A stretch of 64,000 bases of DNA from Kofleriaceae bacterium (GTDB lineage Bacteria; Myxococcota_A; Polyangia; Haliangiales; Haliangiaceae), in contig JANTGM010000009.1 in the NCBI GenBank assembly GCA_024762925.1, positions 1 through 64,000 of the forward strand, written 5' to 3'. The notes under the pieces were generated by a model. That model saw nothing but the letters and a program-made list of their open reading frames with translations, ran no database searches and was not told the DNA's origin. Each line of letters begins with the position of its first letter. Within the stretch, counting starts at the first letter, position 1. This document shows positions 10,681-29,261 of the stretch, one piece after another. The translations under genes were made by a program, and so were the position numbers.

Positions 10681-11314
10681 CCGGCGCTTCACTCGCTCGA
10701 ATCTGCTTTGACTCGAATCTCCAGTACCTTGTTGATCCTGATCGTGTGAAACCCAAGCGCTTGCTCGCCGGATGGTCGTGCACGCACTTGGGCGCCCTGC
10801 CCGCACACTAGTGTGGGATCCAGAGAGATTGATTCGTGATCGCGAAGTCAGCTCGTTTTCTGGCGAGGCGGGAAGAGGAAGTTTGCTGGGGCAAGCGACC
10901 GATGAACAACGAAGAAGACTGGCAGAGCCCGTCTGTCTAGCGGGCGAGAAGATGAGTGAGCGCGTTCGATATTCATGAATCGCGCGCGAGTGTCGGATTC
11001 AAGACTCTTGCTCGCGCTCGCTCGGTTCTTCGCTCTCTGGACGCCTTCGGCTCTGCGTTGCTCAGCGCTCACTTGCCCCAGCAAACTCGTTGTTCACGCC
11101 TTGCCAGTGAACGAACTCCCATCACGATCGTCGATCAACCATTCTGAATCCGACACGAGTTTCTGAGAAGCTTCTGATGTGACACGGATCGATTCCGCAT
11201 GCTCCATGGCGGTTGGGGCGCACTCAGAACGAATCACCATACAGAACTTGATGAATTCGGAAGCGCGCGAGAGTTGGCCTCTGCAAACAAACTTGTTGGT
11301 GTCGTCTGGACTTC
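10681..11314. repeat. Gene-free interval with family A repeat in inverted arrangement
   Basis: I see no convincing gene in these 634 bases. From 10800 there is a family A copy: CACTAGTGTGGGATCCAGAG, then a degenerate TCGCGAAG...TTTCTGGCGAGGC block. A 15-base block GTTTGCTGGGGCAAG near 10883-10897 returns as its exact reverse complement near 11073-11088. Bases 11030-11100 also match the first 70 bases of the window in reverse. The segment therefore looks like two repeat copies facing each other, with a possible long hairpin of about 200 bases. Confidence 0.6.
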
Positions 11315-13275: not shown

Positions 13276-14700
13276 GTGATCGCTGACTGGCTCTCGCTGA
13301 TTTTATCTGCTCTAGCTATTTGGGCCGTCGTATTCTCAGTCTATGTGGTTTCAGAGCGGCGCTCACCAGCATCCACAATTTCGTGGGTGCTCACGCTGGG
13401 CTTTCTTCCAATCGTGGGCTTTGTCGTCTACTACTTCGTAGGACCTCGCCGTTTTGATCGCAAGAAGCGCCGTCGTGCACAAGCGCAGCAGGCTGTGAAG
13501 GAAGCTTTGGTCGCGCCCAGCGACGATGATTCTGTTGACAATGCGGAGGACGTTGAGTTTCTCGTTGCGATGAACAATGGCGCTCTCGGCGCATCCGCAC
13601 ACAGGCGCACTGCCGAACTCAAGCTGCTCTTCTCGGGAAACGAGACATACGGGCAGATTATCGAGGACATCGACAATGCCACGCATCATGTCAACATGGA
13701 GTACTACATCTGGGAGCCGGATTCGATCGGCACCCGACTTCGAGATGCTCTTGTCGCCAGTGCAGCGCGGGGCGTTGCGGTTCGCTTGCATCTCGACGGA
13801 GTTGGGTCTGCCAAGGCAAATAAGCGGTTTTGGCGGCCTTTAACAGACGCTGGCGGCGTTGTCGCGCACTTCAATCGACTGGCGCTGCGGCGCCGGACGG
13901 GCAACTTTCGGACTCACCGAAAAATCGCAGTCATCGATGGCAAGATTGGCTACAGCGGCGGCATGAACATCACCGATGTGCACTCCGAAGAGTTCTCAGG
14001 GGACGATTCATGGAGAGACACCCACCTGCGCCTTGAAGGCCCTGCGACCCGTGGGTTGCAAATGGTCTTCAACGAAGGTTGGTATGATTCGACGAGCGAG
14101 ATTCTCGATGGAGCCGAGTTCTTCCCGATCGAAACGACCGCTCACGCGAAGTCTCGAGCCGTGCAGATCGTTTCATCAGGACCCGATGAGAGCCACAATG
14201 CGATGCACAAGCTCATCGCCTCGAGCATCTTTGCTTCGGTTCGCCGGGTCTACATAACAACGCCGTACTTTGTCCCCGATCCCACAATCTGCGACGCATT
14301 AAACTCCGCTGCCCTGCGCGGTGCCGATGTGCGCATCATCGTTCCTCGAAAAAACGATCTGAAACTCATTGGTGCTGCCTCGCGCTCATACTATCCTGGC
14401 CTGCTGGACGTTGGCGTGCGCATCTTCGAATACGGCCCACGCATGGTGCACGCCAAGACCTTAGTCGTTGATGACACGCTCTCGTTGGTGGGCACAGCCA
14501 ATGTTGACAATCGCAGCTTTCGTCTCAACTTCGAAGTTGGCGTGGCTTGCTACGATGGCGATATCTGCGAGGAGTTGGTTGCAGCCTTTGAGCAGGACTT
14601 GGAGAACACAGTGGAGGTAACGTTGGAAATGGTTGCTCGGTATAGCCGTTTTCGACGATTGGGGCAGAGCTTCGCTCGGCTGGTTTCTCCCTTGCTCTAG
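13276..14700 (+). CDS. cls: Cardiolipin synthase (PLD superfamily)
   Basis: 474 aa. Two N-terminal transmembrane segments (about residues 5-25 and 35-55) precede two phospholipase D motifs: HRKIAVIDGKIGYSGG (His near 215) and HAKTLVVDDTLSLVGT (His near 392), each followed by the expected GGxN/NxDNRSF context. It should condense two phosphatidylglycerols, or PG and PE, into cardiolipin at the inner membrane. GTG start with AAGGAG 9 bases upstream. The TAG stop is made of a TA dinucleotide plus the first G of the adjacent MITE. Confidence 0.93.
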   Translation: MIADWLSLILSALAIWAVVFSVYVVSERRSPASTISWVLTLGFLPIVGFVVYYFVGPRRFDRKKRRRAQAQQAVKEALVAPSDDDSVDNAEDVEFLVAMNNGALGASAHRRTAELKLLFSGNETYGQIIEDIDNATHHVNMEYYIWEPDSIGTRLRDALVASAARGVAVRLHLDGVGSAKANKRFWRPLTDAGGVVAHFNRLALRRRTGNFRTHRKIAVIDGKIGYSGGMNITDVHSEEFSGDDSWRDTHLRLEGPATRGLQMVFNEGWYDSTSEILDGAEFFPIETTAHAKSRAVQIVSSGPDESHNAMHKLIASSIFASVRRVYITTPYFVPDPTICDALNSAALRGADVRIIVPRKNDLKLIGAASRSYYPGLLDVGVRIFEYGPRMVHAKTLVVDDTLSLVGTANVDNRSFRLNFEVGVACYDGDICEELVAAFEQDLENTVEVTLEMVARYSRFRRLGQSFARLVSPLL

Positions 14701-14813
14701 AGCGTATCTCACAACCACTGACCGAGCATGAGGGGCCGAGCTGAGGGCAGGTCCAGGAGTGAGAGCGCAGGCATAGTGGCTCTACGGCAAGGTTTCGCGA
14801 CCCCGAGATGCGC
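14700..14813 (+). mobile_element. MITE, truncated copy with one terminal inverted repeat
   Basis: Starts GAGCGTATCTCACAACCACT after a TA dinucleotide and matches the complement of 16527-16643 over about 114 bases with few mismatches and short indels. The distal end seen in the complete copy is missing; homology stops at 14813, where family A repeat sequence follows. It carries no ORF. It directly abuts the cls stop codon. Confidence 0.7.
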
Positions 14814-14819
14814 ATGGCC

Positions 14820-14940
14820 AGCGCTCTTCGTTGCTCAGTTCCTTCCTTACCCCGGTAAGGTCGTCGTTCGCGCCCTGCCAGAGAACAAGCCTGCTTCGCG
14901 AGAGGAAATCTTTCCTCCGGAACTTGGCACTAGCGTTACG
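14820..14940 (-). repeat. Dispersed non-coding repeat, family A, copy 3
   Basis: The reverse complement contains CTAGTGCCAAGTTC, GATTTCCTCTCGCGAAGCAG and a GGTAAGGAAGGA-CTGAGCAACGA block, all matching the start of the window (1-172). An internal short palindrome TTACCCCGGTAA lies near 14845-14858. The end of the desaturase gene just enters the repeat. Confidence 0.6.
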
Positions 14941-15532
14941 CCGCGTTCTGTGAGGCAGTAGTCTTCTTCTTCTTGTGTGGGCGGGCAATCACGTAGTTCT
15001 CTGCAAACTCCGGAAGCACCTCATTGTTTTCGTCGACAAGCCAGGGCACTTCAAAGAGCTTCCGTTCTGGAACTCGAACAATTCCCGATGGAGTGAGCGT
15101 GCCGAATACTCGATCCCAAATTGGCGAAGTCACTCCGTGATTCTCCTTTGGGCGGGTGTAATGGTGATGAAGGTGATGCTGCCGTAGCCAGGTACCGTAT
15201 CGAGATTTTGGCGCGTGCGTGTGGCACCGCCGATGCAGCCACTCATACATGAGGTAGGTTGAGGCAAAGGCACCCCCGTAGCACAACCCAAACAACGGGC
15301 CTGCAAGCCAAAGCACTGCTGGGGTTGCGACAGCCAGGGCAAAACTCGCGGCAATTGCCTTTTCTAGCGCCGGGGCGAAGTACTGACCGTTGGTGTGGTG
15401 TTTCAAGTGCTGCCGGGAGAATCGGTTTCGGCCTTTGGCTCCGTGCGCATACCAGTTGTGAAGGGCATACTCTGCGAACGACCAAGTGAGTACGCCGAGG
15501 ATGCTGCTAACAGCGATGTAGACAATGAGCAT
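14936..15532 (-). CDS. Sterol desaturase / fatty acid hydroxylase family protein
   Basis: 198 aa integral membrane di-iron enzyme. The His clusters are clear: HNWYAH, RQHLKHH, HRRCHTH and RQHHLHHH, with transmembrane helices at about 5-25 and 60-100. Family members hydroxylate or desaturate lipids, including sterols, carotenoids and fatty acids, using O2. The gene follows the TetR gene by 4 bases, so it is the likely target of that regulator. The C-terminus is basic (HKKKKTTA) and its last codons run into repeat DNA. Confidence 0.88.
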   Translation of the reverse strand: MLIVYIAVSSILGVLTWSFAEYALHNWYAHGAKGRNRFSRQHLKHHTNGQYFAPALEKAIAASFALAVATPAVLWLAGPLFGLCYGGAFASTYLMYEWLHRRCHTHAPKSRYGTWLRQHHLHHHYTRPKENHGVTSPIWDRVFGTLTPSGIVRVPERKLFEVPWLVDENNEVLPEFAENYVIARPHKKKKTTASQNAA

Positions 15533-15536
15533 GAAC

Positions 15537-16217
15537 CTATCCCTTCTTGGCCTCTTGAGGTGCGCCCCAGGCGATTAAGAGATTTTCTAGGAGTCCTTGT
15601 CCCACGCTCTGTGCTGAGAAAAGTTCTGGGTCAAAGCGTGAAAGCTTGCCGAGCGCAACAGCACCTTGAAGCGATGCCCAAAGCTGTATCGCCCTCTCCC
15701 GCGCCAGCCCTGGGGAGAGGGCACCTTCGTCTTGCGCTCTCGCAATCAGCTGCTCCACCAACATCATGAGCGCCACGAGTCTTGGTGCGGTCTCTGTAGC
15801 TATGGGGTCGCCAATCAAGACCTTGGGAGATGCCAGCATCTGACTTATCAAGCTGAGTTCATGGGCACAGTCGCCGGCGGTCGACTGCAGGTAGCACTCG
15901 GCCGCAGCACGCAGCTTTGCAATCTCATTGCCCTCACCTTCAAGTGGCGCCAACGCCTCGGCAATGCGCTTGTGGAGCGAGGCAATTGCGCGCCTCTGCA
16001 TATGGGCGAGAAGCACCTCCATTGATGGGAAATATCGGTAGAGCGCACCTGGGGTGTAGTCGAGCTCCTTTGCAAGGCGCCCCACCGTCACCTTTTCGAG
16101 CCCACCCTCAGCCAGAATTCGCATCGCCGTATCGACAATAAACTCTTTTCGTTCTAGACGTTTACGGCGAACTCGAGGTGAGTGTTCGGCCGCTGACGCG
16201 GCGATTTCGCGAGCCAT
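15537..16217 (-). CDS. TetR/AcrR family transcriptional regulator
   Basis: 226 aa with start at ATG 16217 (MAREIAASAAEHS). The frame is open further up, but that part would be the promoter. The N-terminal helix-turn-helix is clear: IVDTAMRILAEGG...VTVGRLAKELDYTPGALYRYF (about residues 25-65), followed by an all-helical ligand domain. Organised as tetR-desaturase, it probably represses both genes by binding the palindrome 9 bases upstream, responding to a lipid or acyl-CoA-like ligand (inference). Confidence 0.9.
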   Translation of the reverse strand: MAREIAASAAEHSPRVRRKRLERKEFIVDTAMRILAEGGLEKVTVGRLAKELDYTPGALYRYFPSMEVLLAHMQRRAIASLHKRIAEALAPLEGEGNEIAKLRAAAECYLQSTAGDCAHELSLISQMLASPKVLIGDPIATETAPRLVALMMLVEQLIARAQDEGALSPGLARERAIQLWASLQGAVALGKLSRFDPELFSAQSVGQGLLENLLIAWGAPQEAKKG

Positions 16218-16226
16218 GTTTAAAAA

Positions 16227-16241
16227 GTAAAGCGTATTTAC
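16227..16241 (-). promoter_or_regulatory. Putative TetR operator (palindrome GTAAA-N5-TTTAC)
   Basis: A perfect inverted repeat GTAAA GCGTA TTTAC lies 9-24 bases upstream of the tetR start codon, in AT-rich DNA that is otherwise unusual for this window. Size and position fit an autoregulatory TetR-family operator overlapping the promoter. Confidence 0.5.
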
Positions 16242-16451
16242 ATAAACTGCAACAACAATCGTACGGGAATGCTCGTTTTGGGAATGCATCGCCGATTCGC
16301 CGCCACGATTTGAGCCTCGCGGTTGGAGTCGAAGAAGCGGGCCAGGGCTTACCCTCACATCAAGCTGCTGCACTTGCGGACGGTAAATCGCCTAAGAATA
16401 AGTAGTAAACAGGTCTGCATCAACGCTACGCATGCGTGGTCTCACGTGGTC

Positions 16452-16480
16452 GCAAATTGATGCTCCTGAACTTGGAACTA
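16452..16480 (+). repeat. Family A repeat fragment
   Basis: Short piece (GCTCCTGAACTTGGAACTAG) matching the complement of about 98-120 with about two mismatches. It sits immediately beside the TA target dinucleotide of the complete MITE. Confidence 0.45.
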
Positions 16481-16643
16481 GAGCCTGTCTCACAACCTCT
16501 TTGGTCGTCTGAGTCCCGATCTGCGGCGCATCTCGGCGTCGCGAAACCTTGCCGTGGAGCCACTATGCTGCGCTGCGCTCTCGCTCCTGGACCTGCTTGC
16601 AACTCGGGCCCTCATACTCGGTCAGTGGTCATGAGATACGCTC
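16481..16643. mobile_element. MITE, complete copy with TA target duplication
   Basis: 163 bases bounded by imperfect terminal inverted repeats: left GAGCCTGTCTCACAACCTCT, right (complement) GAGCGTATCTCATGACCACT, 15 of 20 identical. TA flanks both ends (16479-16480 and 16644-16645), as expected for TA-targeting elements of the IS630/Tc1-mariner type. No coding capacity. It is inverted relative to the truncated copy at 14700-14813. The terminal C together with the TA forms the complement of the TAG stop codon of the minus-strand lipoprotein. Confidence 0.7.
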
Positions 16644-17380
16644 TAATCAATCGCGAAGCAGTAGATTCGGCCGGTCCCCGCGTTGCCATTGAGCGACTCT
16701 TCGTCGCAAGAACCACTGTGTTGGCTATTCCAGCTCTCACCATCATCAACTTCTGTGTCGGTATGCCCAACCTGTCCCTGGCTGTTGACGGTGCCGTTTG
16801 TCCAGTTGTCACAGGTTTCGCTGTCGCTATTTAGTGTGCCGTTTCTTGCACTTCCGGTGAGCGCATCATGTTCGTTGCCTGGAATTGTGGCTCCGAGTTC
16901 ATCAAACATGAGATTGCCGAGGATGCCGTCGGTGTGAAGCGCAGCGACGCTTGATGCGACCATCGTGCCCTGCTGGTTGAACCACGGGCCGGAGCCAATG
17001 CGATCGCGTGCATCTACCGCAGGCCCTGGTCCTGTGGCCCCTGTTGAGAGGTAGGCTCGCCAAGTGCGCGCACCTGCACCACCGTTTGTCGCCAGGTTTT
17101 GACACTTTGCATCAGCACCATCAAGCCCTCCAAGATCGCCACCATTGGCCCCACTACCGGTACTCGTGACGAAGAAGCTCATGTCAACATTTGGCATTGC
17201 ATCAGGGCCTAGACGAGCATCTGCGGGATCACCGCCACCATCGGTGGTGCCAGTCGAACCATCCTGCGCCTTGCCGCCATCCATGTCGCCGGGGTTGCCA
17301 TCGTCAGAACCTCCACAAGCCATAGATCCAATAAGCAATAAGAACGTAGCTAGGTTACGCATGCCATCGAATCGTATCAT
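16643..17380 (-). CDS. Lipoprotein with DUF1554-like / lectin-like domain
   Basis: 245 aa. Signal peptide with lipobox SMAC, then a D/G/P/T-rich spacer (about 25-70), then a compact domain starting SFFVTSTGSG. This contains GADAKCQNLA, TWRAYLSTGATGPG, DRIGSGPWFNQQG and a C-terminal GRIYCFAID. This pattern is that of DUF1554-like/endostatin-like surface domains common in Myxococcota and Leptospira lipoproteins. Probably surface-exposed; ligand unknown. ATG 17362 (MRNLATFLL) is an equally good start. The stop codon is partly supplied by the adjoining MITE. Confidence 0.8.
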   Translation of the reverse strand: MIRFDGMRNLATFLLLIGSMACGGSDDGNPGDMDGGKAQDGSTGTTDGGGDPADARLGPDAMPNVDMSFFVTSTGSGANGGDLGGLDGADAKCQNLATNGGAGARTWRAYLSTGATGPGPAVDARDRIGSGPWFNQQGTMVASSVAALHTDGILGNLMFDELGATIPGNEHDALTGSARNGTLNSDSETCDNWTNGTVNSQGQVGHTDTEVDDGESWNSQHSGSCDEESLNGNAGTGRIYCFAID

Positions 17381-19598: not shown

Positions 19599-22500
19599 AT
19601 GGGGTGGCGCATATTCTTGGCAGTCGCGTGGTTTGGGCTCACAAGTGCCTGCAACGTAACGACCGGAGCTCCCGATGCCGGGGATGCTCCGATGAGCATT
19701 AGTGAAGCGATTGGACCAAACGGCGGAGAACTCAGGTTGGCTGGTGCTCGAGTGCAGTTGCCGGTAGGTGCGCTATCGAGCGAGTTGGTCTTGACGCTTC
19801 GGCGCGGGCTTGCGGTACCAGAGGGGCAAGAGGCGGTTTCAGAAGTATTCGTAATTGAGCCTGAGGGGCTAATCCTCGATGTTCCTGCGGTTGTCGAAGT
19901 CGTGGTCGCTGGAGATGATGTAGCGCTCTTTACCGTTGATGCTTTGGGAAGCAAGAACCTCAACGCCGAAACGAGAGAGGCGGGGCTGGAAGCCGAACTC
20001 GGAACGCTGGGCGTGATCTTTGGAGGCAAGAAGAACCCGTGCGGGCAGCTCCTTCAGGATGATGCCAACAACTGTGGCTCTTGCGGCCGCTCTTGCAATA
20101 ACAACAGTGGAATCGTGAGTTGTCGAGAGGGAAGCTGTGAGATTCGCTGCAACAATGGGCACGGCGACTGTGATGCTGATGCCGACACCGGTTGTGAGAT
20201 TGACCTGCGCGACGATGTCGACAACTGTGGAGGCTGTGGAGTTGTGTGCTCCGAGGATGCGATCTGTGAGCGGCAGGGTAATCGTTCCTTCTGCGCATGC
20301 ATCGAAGGCTTCGCTGGAGATGGCATCAACTGCGAAAAACTCCCAGACTGTCTAACAGGACATCGACGAGTAGAAGAAGCCTGCGTTGATATTGACGAGT
20401 GTGCTGAAGGGCTCGATTCTTGTGGCGACTCGGCGATCTGCGACAACACGGTGGGAGCATTCTCCTGTTCGTGCCCAGATGGATTTGAGCCTCTGCTTGG
20501 CACGTCTGGTTATGGCGATGGCGATGGCGGTTATGGCGGTGGCGATGGCGGTGGCGGTTATGGCGGTGGCGATGGCGGTTATGGCGGTGGCGATGGCGGT
20601 TATGGCGGTTATGGCGGTGGCGATGGCGGTGGCGGTTATGGCGGTGGCGATGGCGGTTATGGCGGTGGCGATGGCGGTTATGGCGGTGGCGATGGAAACG
20701 GTCCCAAGTTTGAGTGTGTCGATACGGATGAGTGTGCCATTGGTGCCAATAACTGCTCGAGTGATGCTGCGTGCCAGAATATTTCTGGTGGATTTCTATG
20801 CTCGTGCAAGCCGGGTTTTGAGGGCGACGGAGTAGATTGCCTCGACATCGACGAGTGTCATCTCGGAACAGATTCTTGTGCGACCGATGCCATCTGCACA
20901 AACACGCTAGGTAGCTTCACATGCGAGTGCAAGAGTGGCTATGTCGGAGATGGTTCGTTCTGTCAGGAGGTGGACGAGTGCGCGGGCAACGTCGCTGGAT
21001 GCGATGAGCACGCCACATGTGAGAATACTCCTGGTGCCTTCATTTGCTCATGCGTGGCGGGCTATGAGGGTAATGGAAACACCTGCTTGGATGTGGATGA
21101 GTGCGCACAAGGGATTGATACGTGTGATTCCAATGCGCAGTGCATAAATCGCGATGGCGGTTTTGACTGCACGTGTGAACCTGGCTACGAGGGAGACGGC
21201 CAGAGCTGCACAGACGTCGACGAGTGCGCCACCAAAGTCGCACAGTGCAGCCCAGATGCGCACTGTGAGAACGTTTCTGGCTCTTTTGCGTGTGAGTGCG
21301 ACTCTGGTTTCCGAGGAAATGGTTTTGCATGTGATGACGTTGACGAGTGTTTTGAAGAAAGTGATACATGTGCCGACGATGCAACGTGCAGCAATCGATC
21401 GGGAGGATTTGATTGTGAGTGCAACGCGGGATTTATTGGCGATGGGTTCGCTTGCCAAGATGTGGATGAATGCCAGGGAGACAATCTCTGCGCTGAGAAC
21501 GCGAGCTGTGAAAACACCGCAGGCGGCTACCAGTGTCAATGCAATCCCGGTTTCTCAGGAAACGGCGAGACATGCGACGACATCGATGAGTGTCAGGAGG
21601 TCGGTGTTTGCGGAGCTTTTGGTGTTTGTGAGAACGTCATTGGAAGCTTTGGCTGCGCGTGCGAATTGGGCTTCGAGCGCGTTGGTGAGCTGTGTGTGGA
21701 TATTGACGAGTGTCTGACCGAAGAGTGCGGTGAGCATGGGCACTGTGAGAACTCGCCAGGATCGTTTTCTTGCCAGTGTGACGAGGGTTTCGTTGGTGAC
21801 GGCATCACGTGCAACGACGCTGCAGAGCGCGTGATTCTCGTGAAAGCCGGTGGCGCACACACCTGCGCGCTCTTCGACAACAAGATGGTTCGCTGCTGGG
21901 GCTGGGGCATCTACGGCGAGCTTGGGTACGGCAACACAGACGATATTGGCGTCACGAACGAACCTGCGGATTCTCCCTACGTACAGCTTGGAGTGGCGGC
22001 GAGAGACTTGGACCTCGGCGTAACGCACACCTGCGCAATTCTTGAAGACGACACACTTCGGTGTTGGGGACGAAACTTCTATGGCTCGCTGGGCCTCGGC
22101 AATACCAATGATATTGGTGATACTGAACTTCCGAATTCTTCTGTGCTTGCTCTTGGCGGCAAGCGAGTGGCACAGGTTGCGGGCGGGGGGGAGCACACCT
22201 GTGCCCTGGATTTTGAAGGCAACGTGTTTTGCTGGGGGCTCGGTATCGATGGACAACTGGGGAATGGAAATGTGACACCCGTTGGCGATGACGAGGATCC
22301 TCTGTTCAGCGGATCAGTAAATCTCCTAGGATCAGCAACACAGGTTGTCGCAGGTCGAGACCACAGCTGCGCGCTTCTCGAAGATGGCACCGTTCAGTGT
22401 TGGGGGCGCGGGGAGCACAACCCAACAGGGTACGGGCACACCGAGAACATTGGCGATGATGAGCTACCGGTCGATGCTGGAGCGGTTGACGTTGGTGGCA

Positions 22501-25500
22501 CAGTACTTCAGCTCACCGCAGGCTGGTACCACACCTGCGCGCTGCTCGACGATGCGAGCGTTCGCTGTTGGGGCTATGGAAATCTAGGCGCTCTAGGATA
22601 TGCGAATCGCGACAGTGTTGGGGATGATGAATTGCCAGCTGATGTTGGAACGGTTGACGTTGGTGGCCCTGTGAAGCAGGTCGTTGCTGGCACCTACCAT
22701 ACGTGCGCGCTGCTCGAGAATGGCAATGTTCGCTGTTGGGGGTATGGAGGCGATGGTCAACTTGGCTACGGAAACACCAATACGATTGGCGACAATGAAC
22801 ATCCGTTTGAAGCTGGTGACGTTGACGTTGGTGGGCGAGTCACTCAGCTCACCGCTGGCTCGTTCCACACGTGCGCACTCTTGGACCGTGGCACCGTTCG
22901 CTGCTGGGGGTCGCGTGAGCACGGGCAGCTTTGTTATCAGGGGTCAGAAAATGTAGGAGACGATGAGCGGCCCGCGCGCATGGGAGATTGTCCCATTCTG
23001 GCCGCCGTGTGCCCTGGAGGGTTTCGACTCGGCGAAGATGGTGTGACATGCATGGATGTTGATGAGTGCGAACTTGGCGTGGATGCATGCAGTGCGCAGG
23101 CTACATGTAGCAATACCGAGGGCCGTTACGAGTGTGAATGCCATGCTGGGTATGAGGGCGACGGATTCGAGTGCGAAGACGTGGATGAGTGTGGAGATGA
23201 AACCGACGATTGCGCGGACTTCGCCACGTGTACGAATACGGATGGCGGGTTTTCGTGTGCATGCAGTGAGGGGTACTTTGGTGACGGAGTTAGCTGCGGA
23301 GGCGCATGTGCAACGTCAAACGATGAGTGCGATGAGAACGCCGAATGCACCGACGGTGATGGTACGTATAGCTGCGAGTGCCTGCCAGGGTTCGTTGGAG
23401 ACGGTTTCCTCTGCGCTGACATCGATGAATGTGCACTTGACCTCGATACATGTGATGTGAACGCTGGATGCGTGAATACACCAGGCGCTTACGAATGTGT
23501 ATGTCTTGAGACCTTCGTAGGCACCGGTGAAACATGCGCTTGTGAAGACGGCTACGAAGACGTCGGAGGGGCATGCGCCGACATCAACGAGTGCTCTCGA
23601 GGCCTAGATGATTGTGCGAATGATGAACTGTGCCTAAACACCGATGGCGGCTTTGAGTGCATTGGGGCAGGGGAGAATCCCGAGGACCCGGAGGAACCAC
23701 TCGTCTGCCCTGATGGCTACGTGCTCACGGGTGCCAGTGCACCAGGAGTCTCTCAGGGAACGATTGACGGCTTTGCCTCAGTGACCATGGAGCAGGGCGC
23801 GAACGATGCGATTGCCACCGCACAGCGGATTGTTGGCCCAACAACAGTGAGAGGAGCCGCCGATGCTGATAGCGATGCGATCGACATTTACCGCGTTCGC
23901 CTCCTTGCGGGGCAGGGAGCATCCCTCTTCATCAGTGCGGACGGCGTTCATAACGATCTAGAACTTCACTTGCACGACCTTCAAGGAGAACCAGTTCAGG
24001 GTTCTTCTGGCGGAGCAATTCGTTCACTCAGCACCTCGAGGTTTGAATCGGTGGTGGCAGAGGCCAGCGGGACCTACCTGGTTGTCGTACAGGCAAGCGC
24101 AGGAACTTCATCGTATTCGCTCGTTATCGGTGAGCCTCTTGGGGCAAGCGCTGCCCTCGGAAATATGGCAGAGCCCGAGTTCGTTCCCGGCGAGGTGATC
24201 GTGCGATTCGACCCTCGTGCCAACATGGCGCATAGCATCGCTACTGTCGCTCAATCGATGGGAACAAAGCAGGCGAGTGGCCAAAATGGTGGCATGACAC
24301 TCATGCGCCGGGCTGCGGGGCGCGTTGCGACGATGGCCACGGATCCGTCATCGGGGCTAAACATCCCCAACGATGCCGTGGCGATGGCAAAGACTTGGTC
24401 GCGGCGCTCTGATGTCCTAAGTGCATCTCCGAACTACCTCTACAAAGCGAGCGCAGTTCCAAACGATGAACACTTCGAAAGACAGTGGAACTACCCGGCG
24501 ATTCGACTTCCACAAGCGTGGGACAATGTTCCCGATGCAAGTGCCATCACTGTGGCTGTGATCGACACCGGAGTTATTCTGAATCACCCAGATCTCGATG
24601 ATGTTCTGGTTCCAGGATTCGATTTCATTCGCGATCCAAGCCGAGCACGCGATGGCGATGGCATCGACCCTGACGCGGATGATGTCGGGGATTCGGCAAG
24701 TCCTGGTGCGAGTTCCTATCATGGTACGCATGTTGCCGGGACGGTGTCTGCGGAGACGAACAATGGCATTGGTGTTGCGGGTGTCGCCCAGGGCGCTCGC
24801 ATCATGCCCCTCCGCGCTCTTGGTGCAGGAGGCGGAAGTAGCTATGACATCATGCAGTCGGTTCGCTTTGCTGCGGGCTTGCCAAACGATTCGGGAACGG
24901 TTCCGGATCGTCGTGCTGACGTTATTAATATGAGTCTTGGCGGCCCCGGACGAGATCCGGCCTTTGAAGCGCTAATTGCTGAAGTTCGTGCACTTGGTGT
25001 TGTGGTTGTTGCTGCTGCAGGTAACTCCAGCTCTTCTGTCTTGGCGTATCCAGCTTCGTATGAGGGAGTCATTTCGGTGAGCGCGACCGACGTTGAAAAT
25101 GCTCTGAGTTACTACTCAAACTTCGGTGGTGCGATTGACGTGGCGGCACCAGGTGGCGACGTACGCGTCGATCTCAATGGCGATGGTGAGGGCGACGGCA
25201 TTCTCTCTACGCTGGGTGCGGATACGAGTAGCGGAATTGCGCCTATCTACAAGCACTATCAAGGGACATCTATGGCTTCACCGCACATGGCTGGCGTTGT
25301 GGCACTGATGCGTGCTGCGAATATCGAACTTGGCCCAAGCGACATCGACGCTCTGTTGGCATCGGGTCTCATTACTACTGACCTTGGAGCCGCAGGGCGT
25401 GACGACAGCTTTGGACACGGCCTTATCAACGCGGAAGCGGCGGTGTTGCGTGCGCAAGAGTTTGTGGCGGGCGCGCCTCCTTCCGAGCAACCGTCACTGA

Positions 25501-28500
25501 TTGCTGAGCCATCCGCGATGAGTTTCCTCGACCCAGCCGAGACCAGCCAAAGCCTTGTTGTGCGAAACTCTGGCGAGGGGGCGATTGTCATTGATGCACC
25601 CACCGTCGACGCTCCATGGCTTCGCTTCGGTGCGGTCGAAATCATCGATGATGTTCACAGCTATCCGGTCGTGATCGACCGTGCGGGCCTTGAGGTTGGC
25701 AGTTACTCGGCGACCATTACGGTAACCTCTTCCGCCAACACGGCTTCGGTTCCCGTGGTCATGGAGGTTGCGGCGCCCCAGTGCATCGATGTTGATGAGT
25801 GTGAGCTGAACCTCGATGATTGTGCGAATCCAGAGCAAAACGGGGATTGTAGAAACCTGCCAGGCACGTTCGAGTGCTTCTGTTTCGAGGGGTACGAAGG
25901 AGATGGTAAGACTTGTTCTGATGTTGACGAGTGTGAAGCCGGCACTGACAACTGCAGCGATTTCGCGGTTTGCACGAATGCCGACCCGGGCTTCACGTGT
26001 GAGTGCCTCCCAGGGTTTGAAGGCGATGGAATCGTCTGTTCTCCCCCAAATGAGTGCGAACTCGGTTTCGACAACTGTGATGAGGATGCCACCTGCACTG
26101 ACACGTTCGAGGGCTTCGAGTGTTCCTGCAATGACGGCTATGCCGGAGATGGTGTTGAGTGTGAGGACATTGATGAGTGCGAAGACGGCAGTCACGCGTG
26201 TGATGCGAATGCCTTTTGCACCAACACCATCGGGGCCTACGAGTGCACCTGTTCTCCGCACTTCTCAGGGACTGGAGCAGGCTGTATCCCTGATGATGGC
26301 TGTCTGAGCCTTGAGAACTTCGAAGCCGATTGGCCGAATGCCACATGGCGAGAACCTCACGGTCTTGCGGTTGGCGGAATTGTTGCGGCGAGTTCTGCGA
26401 GAACGGGCAAGGTTGGCCTCACCCAGCTGGACGGAAGTGCTTTGCACACGCCCACTGCCCTCGGCGAGAGCCAAGATGCACTCGGAGCTTGGATACGCCT
26501 AGGGGATGTCGGAGCAATCGCGTCCCTTGTCTTCGGAAGTAGCGATGAAGGGGGCAGCTTCCTACAAGCGGATGGCAGCGGCGCGCTCGGTTTGTATCGA
26601 TGGACTCGAAGCGGGGAGCCGGCGCTCATCAACGAGGTCATAGCGCCTCTTCCAATTGGCGAGTGGCTCTATCTCGACGTTTTCTTTCACGGAGATGGTG
26701 ACGTTACCGCCAGTCTCTTTGGGCCCGATGGCGCTAGCACTGTTGCCGGCTTGAGCGGCTCTGTTGGAGAACTCTCAACGGGAAATGCGGGCCTTGAGTC
26801 CAACGGAGGAGCGGATCTCGATGGGGTGGTTGCATGCGCGTTCTTGCCACTGGTCGATGAATGCGAACTTGGTCTCGATGAGTGCGACGAAAACGCGACC
26901 TGCAATGATCTGCTAGGCGGCTATGAGTGTGTCTGCAACGCATCCTTTGTGGGAGATGGCTTCACATGCGAGGACGAGAATGAGTGCGAGACAGGCAATA
27001 ACAGCTGTAGCGCAAATGCGATTTGCACCAACACGATTGGGGCCTATGTATGTGCCTGTGCCGAGGGCTTTGAGGGAGATGGACTCATTTGCACAGACGT
27101 CAACGAGTGTGAACGCGGAACCTTCTCTTGCGACGATAACGCTACCTGCGTGAACACGTTGGGCGCCTATGAGTGTGCTTGCAACGCCGGCTATGAGGGG
27201 GATGGCAAGACGTGCTCCGATATTGATGAGTGTGCAATTGGCACCGATACCTGTGCCGACGATGCCGAGTGCATCAACATCCCCGGTAGCTACGATTGCT
27301 CGTGCCTTGAGGGTTTTGAAGGGAATGGCTTTGTTTGTGATGATGTTGATGAGTGCGCTCTTGGCCTCGACTCATGCCACGATGCAGCGACCTGCTTCAA
27401 CGCCGAGGGCAGCTACACATGCGAGTGCAACGGCGGCTGGGACGGCGATGGCTTTGAGTGTTTTGACATCGACGAGTGTGGGCTGGGTACAGATACCTGC
27501 GATCCACTGGCGGAGTGCTCCAATTCGCAAGGCTTCTTTACTTGTGTGTGCCCAGATGGCTTCACAGGAGATGGCTTCTCATGCATCGATGTTGATGAGT
27601 GCAGCGCCGGTCTCGACAACTGCGATTCGAATGCGGACTGCGACAACACCGCTGGCGAATTCACCTGCACTTGTAAGCAAGGCTTCCAAGGAAACGGCTT
27701 CAGCTGCGCCGATGTTGACGAATGCGCACTTGGTACCGATACATGCAGCGATGATGCGATTTGCCTCAACACCGACGGCGGGTTCGCTTGCGAGTGTGCG
27801 CCCGGCTTTGAAGGCACCGGGTTTGTCTGTAACGACATTGATGAATGCGCGCTTGGCACTGACACCTGCAGTGAGCGCGCGCTGTGTACCAATACAATCG
27901 GAGCGTTTGCATGCGATTGCCGGCAAGGCTTTGAAGGCGATGGCTTCACTTGCCTCGATGTCGATGAGTGCGCAACCGGCACCTTTGACTGCCCGCTGAA
28001 TTCCTCGTGCAGCAATACCGCTGGCGGCTTTGACTGCAACTGTCGCCGCGGCTATGACCTTGATGATGCCGGTGTATGCGTCGATATCGCGATCAAGGCA
28101 CAGAGCATTGGCGCGGGGGATGCGCATACCTGTGCGCTCATGAACGAAGGCGTCGTAAAGTGCTGGGGCTCTGGAAGCAACGGGCGAACTGGTCACGGCA
28201 ATACGCAAAACATTGGCGACGATGAAATCGCAGGAGACGCGCCCATCGTCAACATCGCAGAAGAGGAAGTGGTGCAGTTGGCAGTTGGTGGGGCCCACAA
28301 CTGTGTGCTTCTTGACGATGGGACGATTCGATGCTGGGGGCTTGGTCAACACGGTCGCCTAGGACACGCCGATAGCGAGGATGTTGGTGACGATGAAGTT
28401 CCTGCTGATGTAGGAAAAGTTCCGATGCCAGCAAGTGCGGTCGAGCTGGCCTTGGGACAAAAACACAGCTGCGCACTCCTTGAGGGAGGCGTCGTGAGTT

Positions 28501-29261
28501 GCTGGGGCGACAACTCCTTCGGGCAACTGGGTGCGGGCCTACAAGCCGATCCCATTCAGCGCAACGACGCTGTTGATGTTGGTGGTCCAGTGACAGCCAT
28601 TGCTGCCGGTGACTATCACACTTGTGCACTTCTCGATTCCGGCGAAGTTGTGTGTTGGGGGCTTGGCTCCTTCGGCCGGTTGGGCTACGGAAATAGCAAC
28701 GCAGTCGGCCTATTGAAGACCCCTGCGGACGCAGGCGCCGTCTCTTTGGGCGCCAGCGCAATTGCTTTGGCAGCCGGCGCAAACCACACATGCGCTTTGC
28801 TTGTTGGAGGCGAGCTTCGCTGCTGGGGGCGGGCGCTCTTTGGTGCGATCGGAACGGGCGTTCCAGGCAATGTTGGAGACGATGAAGTGCCAACGGCTGT
28901 TGCGCCAGTTGTGCTAGACGCAGCGCCAATCACGGTCACCGCTGGTAGCTCGCACACATGTGTAGCCTTTGCTGACGGTGAGGTGCAGTGCTTTGGGCTT
29001 GCGGCACAGGGGCAGCTTGGCTACGGAAACAAACTGAACATTGGTGACAATGAAGCTCCCAATCTTGCGGGCTTTGTTGATGTTGGCGGGCGGGTGCGTG
29101 AAATCGACGCCGGAGCCTTTCACACCTGTGTCGTCACGGACGTTTCCGAGGTGCGATGTTGGGGCAATGGAAGTCTTGGCCAACTTGGTTACGGTACGAC
29201 CTTCAATGTAGGCGATACGGAGTCTCCAGCTGATGTCGATGTCGTAAGGCTCGCGCCTTAA
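19599..29261 (+). CDS. Giant mosaic lipoprotein: EGF-like, RCC1 propellers and subtilisin-type protease
   Basis: 3220 aa, with a signal ending LTSAC (Cys18). Order: ZU5-like region (about 33-140); Cys-rich NCGSCG/NCGGCG modules; EGF-like modules 1-11 (to about 741) with a Gly/Asp/Tyr repeat inserted at 304-366; RCC1 propeller 1 (about 745-1135, seven HTCAL...CWG blades); EGF 12-16; PPC-like domain (about 1398-1514); S8 propeptide and protease (Asp1656, His1708, Asn1809, Ser1891 in GTSMASPH); a BACON/Ig-like domain (about 1964-2058); EGF 17-20; a LamG-like segment (about 2234-2418); EGF 21-30; RCC1 propeller 2 (about 2831-3220, seven blades). Most EGF modules carry the calcium-binding DxDEC start. 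Probably a surface adhesin-protease for prey, kin or substrate contact (inference). Confidence 0.93.
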   Translation: MGWRIFLAVAWFGLTSACNVTTGAPDAGDAPMSISEAIGPNGGELRLAGARVQLPVGALSSELVLTLRRGLAVPEGQEAVSEVFVIEPEGLILDVPAVVEVVVAGDDVALFTVDALGSKNLNAETREAGLEAELGTLGVIFGGKKNPCGQLLQDDANNCGSCGRSCNNNSGIVSCREGSCEIRCNNGHGDCDADADTGCEIDLRDDVDNCGGCGVVCSEDAICERQGNRSFCACIEGFAGDGINCEKLPDCLTGHRRVEEACVDIDECAEGLDSCGDSAICDNTVGAFSCSCPDGFEPLLGTSGYGDGDGGYGGGDGGGGYGGGDGGYGGGDGGYGGYGGGDGGGGYGGGDGGYGGGDGGYGGGDGNGPKFECVDTDECAIGANNCSSDAACQNISGGFLCSCKPGFEGDGVDCLDIDECHLGTDSCATDAICTNTLGSFTCECKSGYVGDGSFCQEVDECAGNVAGCDEHATCENTPGAFICSCVAGYEGNGNTCLDVDECAQGIDTCDSNAQCINRDGGFDCTCEPGYEGDGQSCTDVDECATKVAQCSPDAHCENVSGSFACECDSGFRGNGFACDDVDECFEESDTCADDATCSNRSGGFDCECNAGFIGDGFACQDVDECQGDNLCAENASCENTAGGYQCQCNPGFSGNGETCDDIDECQEVGVCGAFGVCENVIGSFGCACELGFERVGELCVDIDECLTEECGEHGHCENSPGSFSCQCDEGFVGDGITCNDAAERVILVKAGGAHTCALFDNKMVRCWGWGIYGELGYGNTDDIGVTNEPADSPYVQLGVAARDLDLGVTHTCAILEDDTLRCWGRNFYGSLGLGNTNDIGDTELPNSSVLALGGKRVAQVAGGGEHTCALDFEGNVFCWGLGIDGQLGNGNVTPVGDDEDPLFSGSVNLLGSATQVVAGRDHSCALLEDGTVQCWGRGEHNPTGYGHTENIGDDELPVDAGAVDVGGTVLQLTAGWYHTCALLDDASVRCWGYGNLGALGYANRDSVGDDELPADVGTVDVGGPVKQVVAGTYHTCALLENGNVRCWGYGGDGQLGYGNTNTIGDNEHPFEAGDVDVGGRVTQLTAGSFHTCALLDRGTVRCWGSREHGQLCYQGSENVGDDERPARMGDCPILAAVCPGGFRLGEDGVTCMDVDECELGVDACSAQATCSNTEGRYECECHAGYEGDGFECEDVDECGDETDDCADFATCTNTDGGFSCACSEGYFGDGVSCGGACATSNDECDENAECTDGDGTYSCECLPGFVGDGFLCADIDECALDLDTCDVNAGCVNTPGAYECVCLETFVGTGETCACEDGYEDVGGACADINECSRGLDDCANDELCLNTDGGFECIGAGENPEDPEEPLVCPDGYVLTGASAPGVSQGTIDGFASVTMEQGANDAIATAQRIVGPTTVRGAADADSDAIDIYRVRLLAGQGASLFISADGVHNDLELHLHDLQGEPVQGSSGGAIRSLSTSRFESVVAEASGTYLVVVQASAGTSSYSLVIGEPLGASAALGNMAEPEFVPGEVIVRFDPRANMAHSIATVAQSMGTKQASGQNGGMTLMRRAAGRVATMATDPSSGLNIPNDAVAMAKTWSRRSDVLSASPNYLYKASAVPNDEHFERQWNYPAIRLPQAWDNVPDASAITVAVIDTGVILNHPDLDDVLVPGFDFIRDPSRARDGDGIDPDADDVGDSASPGASSYHGTHVAGTVSAETNNGIGVAGVAQGARIMPLRALGAGGGSSYDIMQSVRFAAGLPNDSGTVPDRRADVINMSLGGPGRDPAFEALIAEVRALGVVVVAAAGNSSSSVLAYPASYEGVISVSATDVENALSYYSNFGGAIDVAAPGGDVRVDLNGDGEGDGILSTLGADTSSGIAPIYKHYQGTSMASPHMAGVVALMRAANIELGPSDIDALLASGLITTDLGAAGRDDSFGHGLINAEAAVLRAQEFVAGAPPSEQPSLIAEPSAMSFLDPAETSQSLVVRNSGEGAIVIDAPTVDAPWLRFGAVEIIDDVHSYPVVIDRAGLEVGSYSATITVTSSANTASVPVVMEVAAPQCIDVDECELNLDDCANPEQNGDCRNLPGTFECFCFEGYEGDGKTCSDVDECEAGTDNCSDFAVCTNADPGFTCECLPGFEGDGIVCSPPNECELGFDNCDEDATCTDTFEGFECSCNDGYAGDGVECEDIDECEDGSHACDANAFCTNTIGAYECTCSPHFSGTGAGCIPDDGCLSLENFEADWPNATWREPHGLAVGGIVAASSARTGKVGLTQLDGSALHTPTALGESQDALGAWIRLGDVGAIASLVFGSSDEGGSFLQADGSGALGLYRWTRSGEPALINEVIAPLPIGEWLYLDVFFHGDGDVTASLFGPDGASTVAGLSGSVGELSTGNAGLESNGGADLDGVVACAFLPLVDECELGLDECDENATCNDLLGGYECVCNASFVGDGFTCEDENECETGNNSCSANAICTNTIGAYVCACAEGFEGDGLICTDVNECERGTFSCDDNATCVNTLGAYECACNAGYEGDGKTCSDIDECAIGTDTCADDAECINIPGSYDCSCLEGFEGNGFVCDDVDECALGLDSCHDAATCFNAEGSYTCECNGGWDGDGFECFDIDECGLGTDTCDPLAECSNSQGFFTCVCPDGFTGDGFSCIDVDECSAGLDNCDSNADCDNTAGEFTCTCKQGFQGNGFSCADVDECALGTDTCSDDAICLNTDGGFACECAPGFEGTGFVCNDIDECALGTDTCSERALCTNTIGAFACDCRQGFEGDGFTCLDVDECATGTFDCPLNSSCSNTAGGFDCNCRRGYDLDDAGVCVDIAIKAQSIGAGDAHTCALMNEGVVKCWGSGSNGRTGHGNTQNIGDDEIAGDAPIVNIAEEEVVQLAVGGAHNCVLLDDGTIRCWGLGQHGRLGHADSEDVGDDEVPADVGKVPMPASAVELALGQKHSCALLEGGVVSCWGDNSFGQLGAGLQADPIQRNDAVDVGGPVTAIAAGDYHTCALLDSGEVVCWGLGSFGRLGYGNSNAVGLLKTPADAGAVSLGASAIALAAGANHTCALLVGGELRCWGRALFGAIGTGVPGNVGDDEVPTAVAPVVLDAAPITVTAGSSHTCVAFADGEVQCFGLAAQGQLGYGNKLNIGDNEAPNLAGFVDVGGRVREIDAGAFHTCVVTDVSEVRCWGNGSLGQLGYGTTFNVGDTESPADVDVVRLAP
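20508..20697 (+). repeat. In-frame minisatellite coding for GGYGGGD units
   Basis: About 190 bases of near-perfect repeats of a 21-base unit (GGCGGTTATGGCGGTGGCGA plus T) and shorter derivatives, all multiples of three. They encode Gly/Asp/Tyr only and sit inside the loop between the fifth and sixth Cys of the second EGF-like module. Repeat number is expected to vary by slippage without breaking the frame. Confidence 0.9.

Follow-up and report, generated by a model that had tools for sequence, protein, structure and literature searches.

The window analysed here, a stretch of 64,000 nucleotides (C9:1-64000), belongs to the 6.79 Mb draft genome of a Kofleriaceae bacterium (G000, 246 contigs) and carries a 163-nucleotide element that resembles a miniature inverted-repeat transposable element (MITE). 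One end of this element, a member of what we call family A, forms part of the stop codon of a DUF1554 putative lipoprotein gene; an inverted arm of the same family forms part of the stop codon of cls. The data make it very probable that family A inserts at CTAG and thereby rebuilds the stop codons it enters, that copies on stop codons need no stop-seeking mechanism, and that the parent transposon is seen at most as relics. The features of the locus are as follows.

13276-14700, plus strand: cls, encoding a cardiolipin-synthase-like phospholipase D (PLD) protein (PF13091, PF00614, PF13396); stop codon TAG at 14698-14700.
14697-14700: CTAG junction common to the cls stop and the element end (read from the sequence).
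14700-14813, minus strand: family A right arm, an inverted partial copy (element positions 46-163) with 87% identity to the 163-nucleotide element.
14814-14933, plus strand: family C arm joined to the A arm and bounded by CTAG at 14930-14933; dispersed matches in the same genome.
14936-15532, minus strand: gene of the fatty acid hydroxylase family (PF04116); stop codon TAA at 14938-14936, with two bases between it and the CTAG at 14930-14933.
15537-16217, minus strand: TetR-family regulator (PF00440), start codon uncertain.
16458-16477, plus strand: probable remnant of a family C end (TGATGCTCCTGAACTTGGAA, by-eye likeness to family C ends), directly 5' of a CTAG at 16478-16481.
16481-16643, plus strand: family A MITE-like element of 163 nucleotides with both ends present, flanked by CTA and TAA on the plus strand.
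16643-17380, minus strand: DUF1554 putative lipoprotein (PF07588), the term lipoprotein being that of the first reading of the sequence; stop codon TAG at 16645-16643.

The preliminary description of this DNA had proposed a 163-base element with imperfect inverted ends and a TA on each side, and this was borne out: the TA flanks lie at 16479-16480 and 16644-16645, and over their first 20 bases the two ends are identical at 15 positions (hand count). The sequence likewise agrees with its statement that the TAG of both cls (ending CTC-TAG) and the lipoprotein gene (ending GAT-TAG) consists of the flanking TA and the G that is the first base of the element. In the genome of origin at least 42 matches to the element were found, itself included (scoring covered the best 40 of 74 first-look candidates), the best other copy having an E-value of 3.2e-61. 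The end pattern TAGAGCNTRTCTCAYAACC gave 60 hits at ≤2 mismatches in the same genome versus 0 for the pattern read backwards; together with the number of matches, this excludes chance. The expected MITE identity and the further copies in the genome were thus both found. The consensus of family A is 159 nucleotides long with the ends GAGCGTATCTCA and TGAGATACGCTC, the window copy having four extra bases, and the mean column identity in an alignment of 15 near-full-length copies was 89%. A length of 159-163 nucleotides is too short for a transposase gene. The comparison was extended to two congeners (G001 and G002) and 27 other genomes of the bacterial family: no match to family A was found in the congeners or in 26 of the 27 other genomes (up to 28 candidates scored per genome), and G021 yielded a match of 47 nucleotides (E=1.8e-5). 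Family A is a non-autonomous, transposase-less, MITE-like inverted-repeat family, new as a family and otherwise of a known kind. Short hairpins (such as TTTTTGTCCCTATCGGGACGGAAA, TTCGCGTCCAACTGGGACGCGAA and CTGGTGTTCCACACCAG) flank some of the copies, to which they are joined by CTAGCTAG or similar sequence; examples, often at contig ends, are C2:61018 (L060), C49:4776 (L037), C95:85 (L009) and C109:157 (L011).

The target site was assessed from 71 A-type ends in fetched sequence, after removal of two end-hits in the window (C9 33200 and 43030; 4 mismatches, without TA). The junction read TA/G (the slash marking the element border) at 52 of these ends and CTA/G at 48. TA/G was present on both sides in 11 of the 19 two-ended copies, and in 10 of these 11 both flanks carried the C; in the exception, the window copy, one flank carries C and the opposite one T. 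The target of family A is therefore mostly CTAG and not any TA. A CTAG target makes duplications of TA and of CTAG look alike, so that family A cannot tell a 2-bp from a 4-bp duplication; its one copy that is informative on duplication length reads CTAG/CTAA. A second family of the same genome, family B, is 175 nucleotides long and begins with TGCGCGATTCATG; it gave at least 54 matches (the best 40 of 405 first-look candidates scored). Identical 4-mers were present on both sides in 17 of 34 family B element pairs (13 CTAG, 2 CTCG and 2 CGAG), the 34 still including several pairs that a permissive pattern matched by chance and one element entered with each of two right ends. The direct repeats other than CTAG (4 copies) exceed those in shuffled pairings (P=0.0014), and the four-base repeats of family B point to a 4-bp duplication on insertion. 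One copy of family B is present in the window (10817-10985). It forms part of a mosaic at 10809-11156, together with another inverted-repeat element with the ends GTGTCGGATTC, and this mosaic is set between CTAG- and CGAG-type junctions.

If these junctions are read as a mechanism, family A would insert into CTAG, leaving CTA before and TAG after the element, and both junctions would again be CTAG, as is seen in the sequences. Where the TAG of the target is the stop codon of a gene, insertion would split the stop and at the same time rebuild it, and the gene would keep its length. Such insertions would be invisible at the protein level, and those inside genes would presumably be lost by selection. 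Each insertion doubles the number of CTAG sites, which would explain why members of families A, B and C directly abut one another and also form chimeras. The copy at 14700 is an example. The preliminary description had taken it for an inverted partial copy, which is correct for the arm at 14700-14813, inverted and beginning at a TA. The match to family A stops at 14813, however, and the next 120 nucleotides (14814-14933) match another dispersed family, family C, up to a CTAG; family C has at least 42 matches in the genome, itself included, many of them partial (the best 40 of 148 candidates scored). The stretch 14700-14933 is thus a chimera of an A arm and a C arm, bounded by CTAG at 14697-14700 and 14930-14933. 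More A-B-C mosaics were seen by eye in the bodies of single-ended A copies.

The two family A ends were also correctly described as an inverted pair that faces across two genes, a tetR gene and one that had been called a desaturase gene; the product of the latter matches FA_hydroxylase (PF04116) instead. Two inverted A ends could in principle have carried tetR and the hydroxylase gene to this place as a composite transposon, and it fits this idea that the outer ends are both A right ends with TA outside and that the open reading frame (ORF) after the lipoprotein gene is a different one in G002, so that synteny breaks at the element. Against it, each single insertion would by itself leave TA outside, and the element on the left is chimeric and closed by a CTAG of its own (14930-14933). 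Nothing was found to show that the pair had moved the tetR-hydroxylase stretch, a second copy of the block not having been the object of a dedicated search, and we consider a composite transposon unlikely.

A further claim of the preliminary description was that insertion had probably fixed the C-terminal end of both Cls and the lipoprotein, that is, that an element entering a TA in or beyond the coding sequence had made new stop codons. The present TAG of both genes is indeed formed by TA and the G of the element, but homologues of the lipoprotein that have no element at this position end in the same way. The homologue in G002, which adjoins a DUF924 gene as in the window, ends ...RLYCFAID with the codons ATC-GAC-TAG; one in G001 (on C808) has the same end with ATT-GAC-TAG, and a second in G001 (on C301) ends ...RTYCFAID with GAC-TAG, without an A element (loci L115, L116 and L190). 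In all three element-free homologues, from two congeners, TAG follows the same final residue, which indicates that the site was already a stop, CTAG in each case, and refutes the claim for the lipoprotein; this empty-site comparison covers one side only, the far flank being different in G002 and G001. Judged from these homologues, the lipoprotein kept its length and stop on insertion. All 12 distant Cls homologues examined and all nine loci of the bacterial family end in SPLL-stop, as does the window protein; the nine loci leave out G001 (where the gene runs off the contig, without C-terminus) and G018, and include the C-terminal piece of L118, a locus split over two frames. The agreement of 21 out of 21 homologues, none of them an element-free C-terminus from a congener, strongly supports the retention of length and stop by Cls as well and makes a C-terminus fixed by insertion very unlikely here. 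For the two genes together, we regard the creation of new stops as barely credible.

The other genes with a family A copy on the stop codon have complete-looking ends. The protein on C20 was matched through to the end of TIGR04551 (position 519/519), which falls on the final residue of the protein (480 of 480), and that on C128 to the MYXO-CTERM model (TIGR03901) up to position 34/34, two residues before its end. In two others an OmpA domain was matched to the last position, and in one a PilZ domain reaches position 101 of 102. The gene at C9:81556 encodes a DUF3127 protein ending DADIPF, which presumably resembles the tip of single-strand-binding protein. No shortened-looking gene was seen among those with a copy on the stop (family searches covered 12 of the 14 such genes other than cls and the lipoprotein gene); several, for instance L030, L016 and L050, have no family model and are hence uninformative on the C-terminus.

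The frequency of copies on stop codons was compared with that expected of CTAG itself. In 16 of 37 evaluable family A elements, the TAG of a codon-scored gene lies exactly at the junction. A sample of 464 kb of the genome (L061-L080 and the window) contains 844 CTAG sites, of which 546 are inside genes, 197 between genes and 101 at stop codons. The on-stop share of family A is far higher than that of all CTAG sites (101/844; p=4e-6); compared with the non-coding sites (101/298, 34%), there is no significant excess (Fisher p=0.28). CTAG targeting and the loss of gene-breaking insertions thus suffice to explain the data. About one third of the non-coding CTAG sites are stops and TAG is the commonest stop codon of this genome, so that many copies would come to lie on stops without any stop-seeking mechanism. 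A transposase or partner that recognises more than CTAG and picks out stop codons or the ends of genes would account for the share of 16/37, which is slightly above the null of 34%, and for the presence of family B on stops as well: 5 TAG stops are directly followed by a family B end in the random sample and the window, and 3 of 20 fetched family B copies (L139, L150 and L152) are on stops. The absence of a significant excess over non-coding CTAG and the lower share of family B argue against such targeting, which we hold to be improbable.

A role of the elements themselves has also to be weighed. Where genes converge, as cls and the hydroxylase gene do, they may be kept because they serve as RNA hairpins or as terminators in both directions, and the whole element folds end to end (z=-2.85 on the minus and -1.78 on the plus strand). 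Any inverted-repeat element would be apt to fold in this way. No host function is needed to explain the element. Moreover, 0 terminator-like sites were found in 14500-16800, compared with a mean of 2.3 in shuffled sequences, and 21 of the 37 evaluable copies lie at places other than stop codons. Retention for such a function is quite improbable.

The insertion of family A into CTAG, with the stop codon rebuilt, thus remains our preferred explanation; several points weigh against it. The other flank of the window copy is CTAA and not CTAG, the result either of a change at one base or of insertion into CTAA. Genes were called with an ad hoc codon score trained on the window; of 52 elements, 15 could not be evaluated for want of an intact TA/G junction with 300 nucleotides of flank, and the 37 evaluable ones include the two that prompted the question, without which the share becomes 14/35. 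The lower share of family B on stop codons counts here too. Neither transposition nor polymorphism between strains was seen, and the empty sites belong to other species. Finally, profile searches and end scans of the genome of origin revealed no transposase with family A ends, which may be missing from a draft of 246 contigs.

The transposase would have been supplied by a transposon of which at most decayed relics are left, with IS630-like and IS5-like sources both conceivable. Profile searches of the genome gave 4 partial hits to PF13358, one below the cut-off to PF01609 and none to PF13340. An IS630-type relic on C40 (L058, ~2188-2572) has kept the 3' end of the transposase gene (stop at 2546-2548), and 24 nucleotides after the stop it has an end, TGTCTGGATCATAGGCATAGAA (read from outside), that is flanked by CTCG. 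A family B arm borders the relic on the other side and a family A arm follows it (by eye; the B end was also found in the end scan). Compared with family C ends, the end of the relic scored 24, a value reached by 2 of 2000 shuffles, and compared with the A ends it scored 10 and 8; the C ends had been picked with a pattern containing GCATAGA, which weakens the comparison with family C. C140 and C170 carry further pieces of the IS630-type relic, and C87 a more distantly related one. A search for a full IS630-like parent had been suggested at the outset: a decayed IS630-type relic does exist, but its end resembles family C and not family A, so that such a parent is no more than hinted at. On C213 (L113, C213:1-520), B-like sequence and another CTAG-bounded arm enclose an IS5-like transposase fragment (NF033581, E=3.7e-8, below the cut-off). 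In the stretches retrieved around transposons of relatives, no terminal repeats were convincing, and no 4-bp repeat was found among the best 8 pairs per locus.

Known mobile elements show parts of this behaviour. IS630 reportedly inserts at the TA within CTAG, to go by the title of Tenzen and Ohtsubo 1991. IS5 of Escherichia coli duplicates a tetranucleotide, with CTAG in 15 of the 24 targets listed (PMC5493358). Both share the preference for CTAG with family A but are autonomous with their own transposase, which family A lacks. RUP of Streptococcus pneumoniae (107 bp, 108 intergenic copies, associated with IS630-Spn1; PMC2229807) is, like family A, a short non-coding inverted-repeat element at TA targets, and an IS630-type transposase is believed to mobilise it in trans; going by the description of RUP, family A differs in its strong preference for CTAG and in that no transposase with matching ends was found. 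MITEPsy1 of Pseudomonas syringae (100 nucleotides, marked IS5?) duplicates CTAG or YTAA (PMC3189936) and is similar to family A as a short MITE at CTAG-type targets. Its ends are different, and ISPsy2 of the IS5 family is known as its likely source; the only IS5-like sequence found here is a relic inside mosaic repeats. The QMITE elements of Coxiella burnetii are inserted at the 3' ends of genes and alter the C-terminal amino acid composition (PMC5896051); family A shares the location but leaves stop and C-terminus intact. No paper was found on the stop-codon-neutral insertion of CTAG-targeted MITEs in a literature search that had most subscription journals outside its scope. The palindromic CTAG target would make stop codons neutral landing places. 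Stops rebuilt in this way would account for overlaps of repeats and genes that resemble truncation, and annotators should not read altered C-termini from them.

TAG is the commonest stop codon in the 464 kb sample (160 of 288 long ORFs). It accounts for 29 of 49 stops in G002 and for 16 of 42 in G001, where TGA has 17; seven more distant genomes of the family use mostly TGA or TAA (small samples), except G010 (TAG 6/12). Across 736 bacterial genomes about 20% of the stops are TAG, which is rarely very frequent, according to a published survey (PMC3549826). The genome studied here, in the sampled parts of which this usually minor stop is the most frequent one, therefore lends itself well to the study of how stop codons evolve. 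A repeated 14-mer within 60 nucleotides was found at 13 of 188 TAG, 3 of 77 TAA and 0 of 72 TGA stops, a count in which some are tandem repeats and which would miss old, eroded copies. With 13 of 188 TAG stops next to a sampled repeat, the elements alone do not account for the dominance of TAG, and they were dropped as its cause. That stops served as safe harbours, and that a long-lived swarm of CTAG-targeting elements helped to push usage to TAG, each insertion at a CTAG- or YTAR-type stop leaving TAG, is a speculation to which we give very little weight.

Two further observations were made elsewhere in the window. At about 94-97, two family C type ends lie back to back with one CTAG in common. 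A single ORF of 3220 codons extends over 19599-29261; its translation has many stretches that we take to be EGF-like and RCC1-like, and a presumably subtilase-like part.

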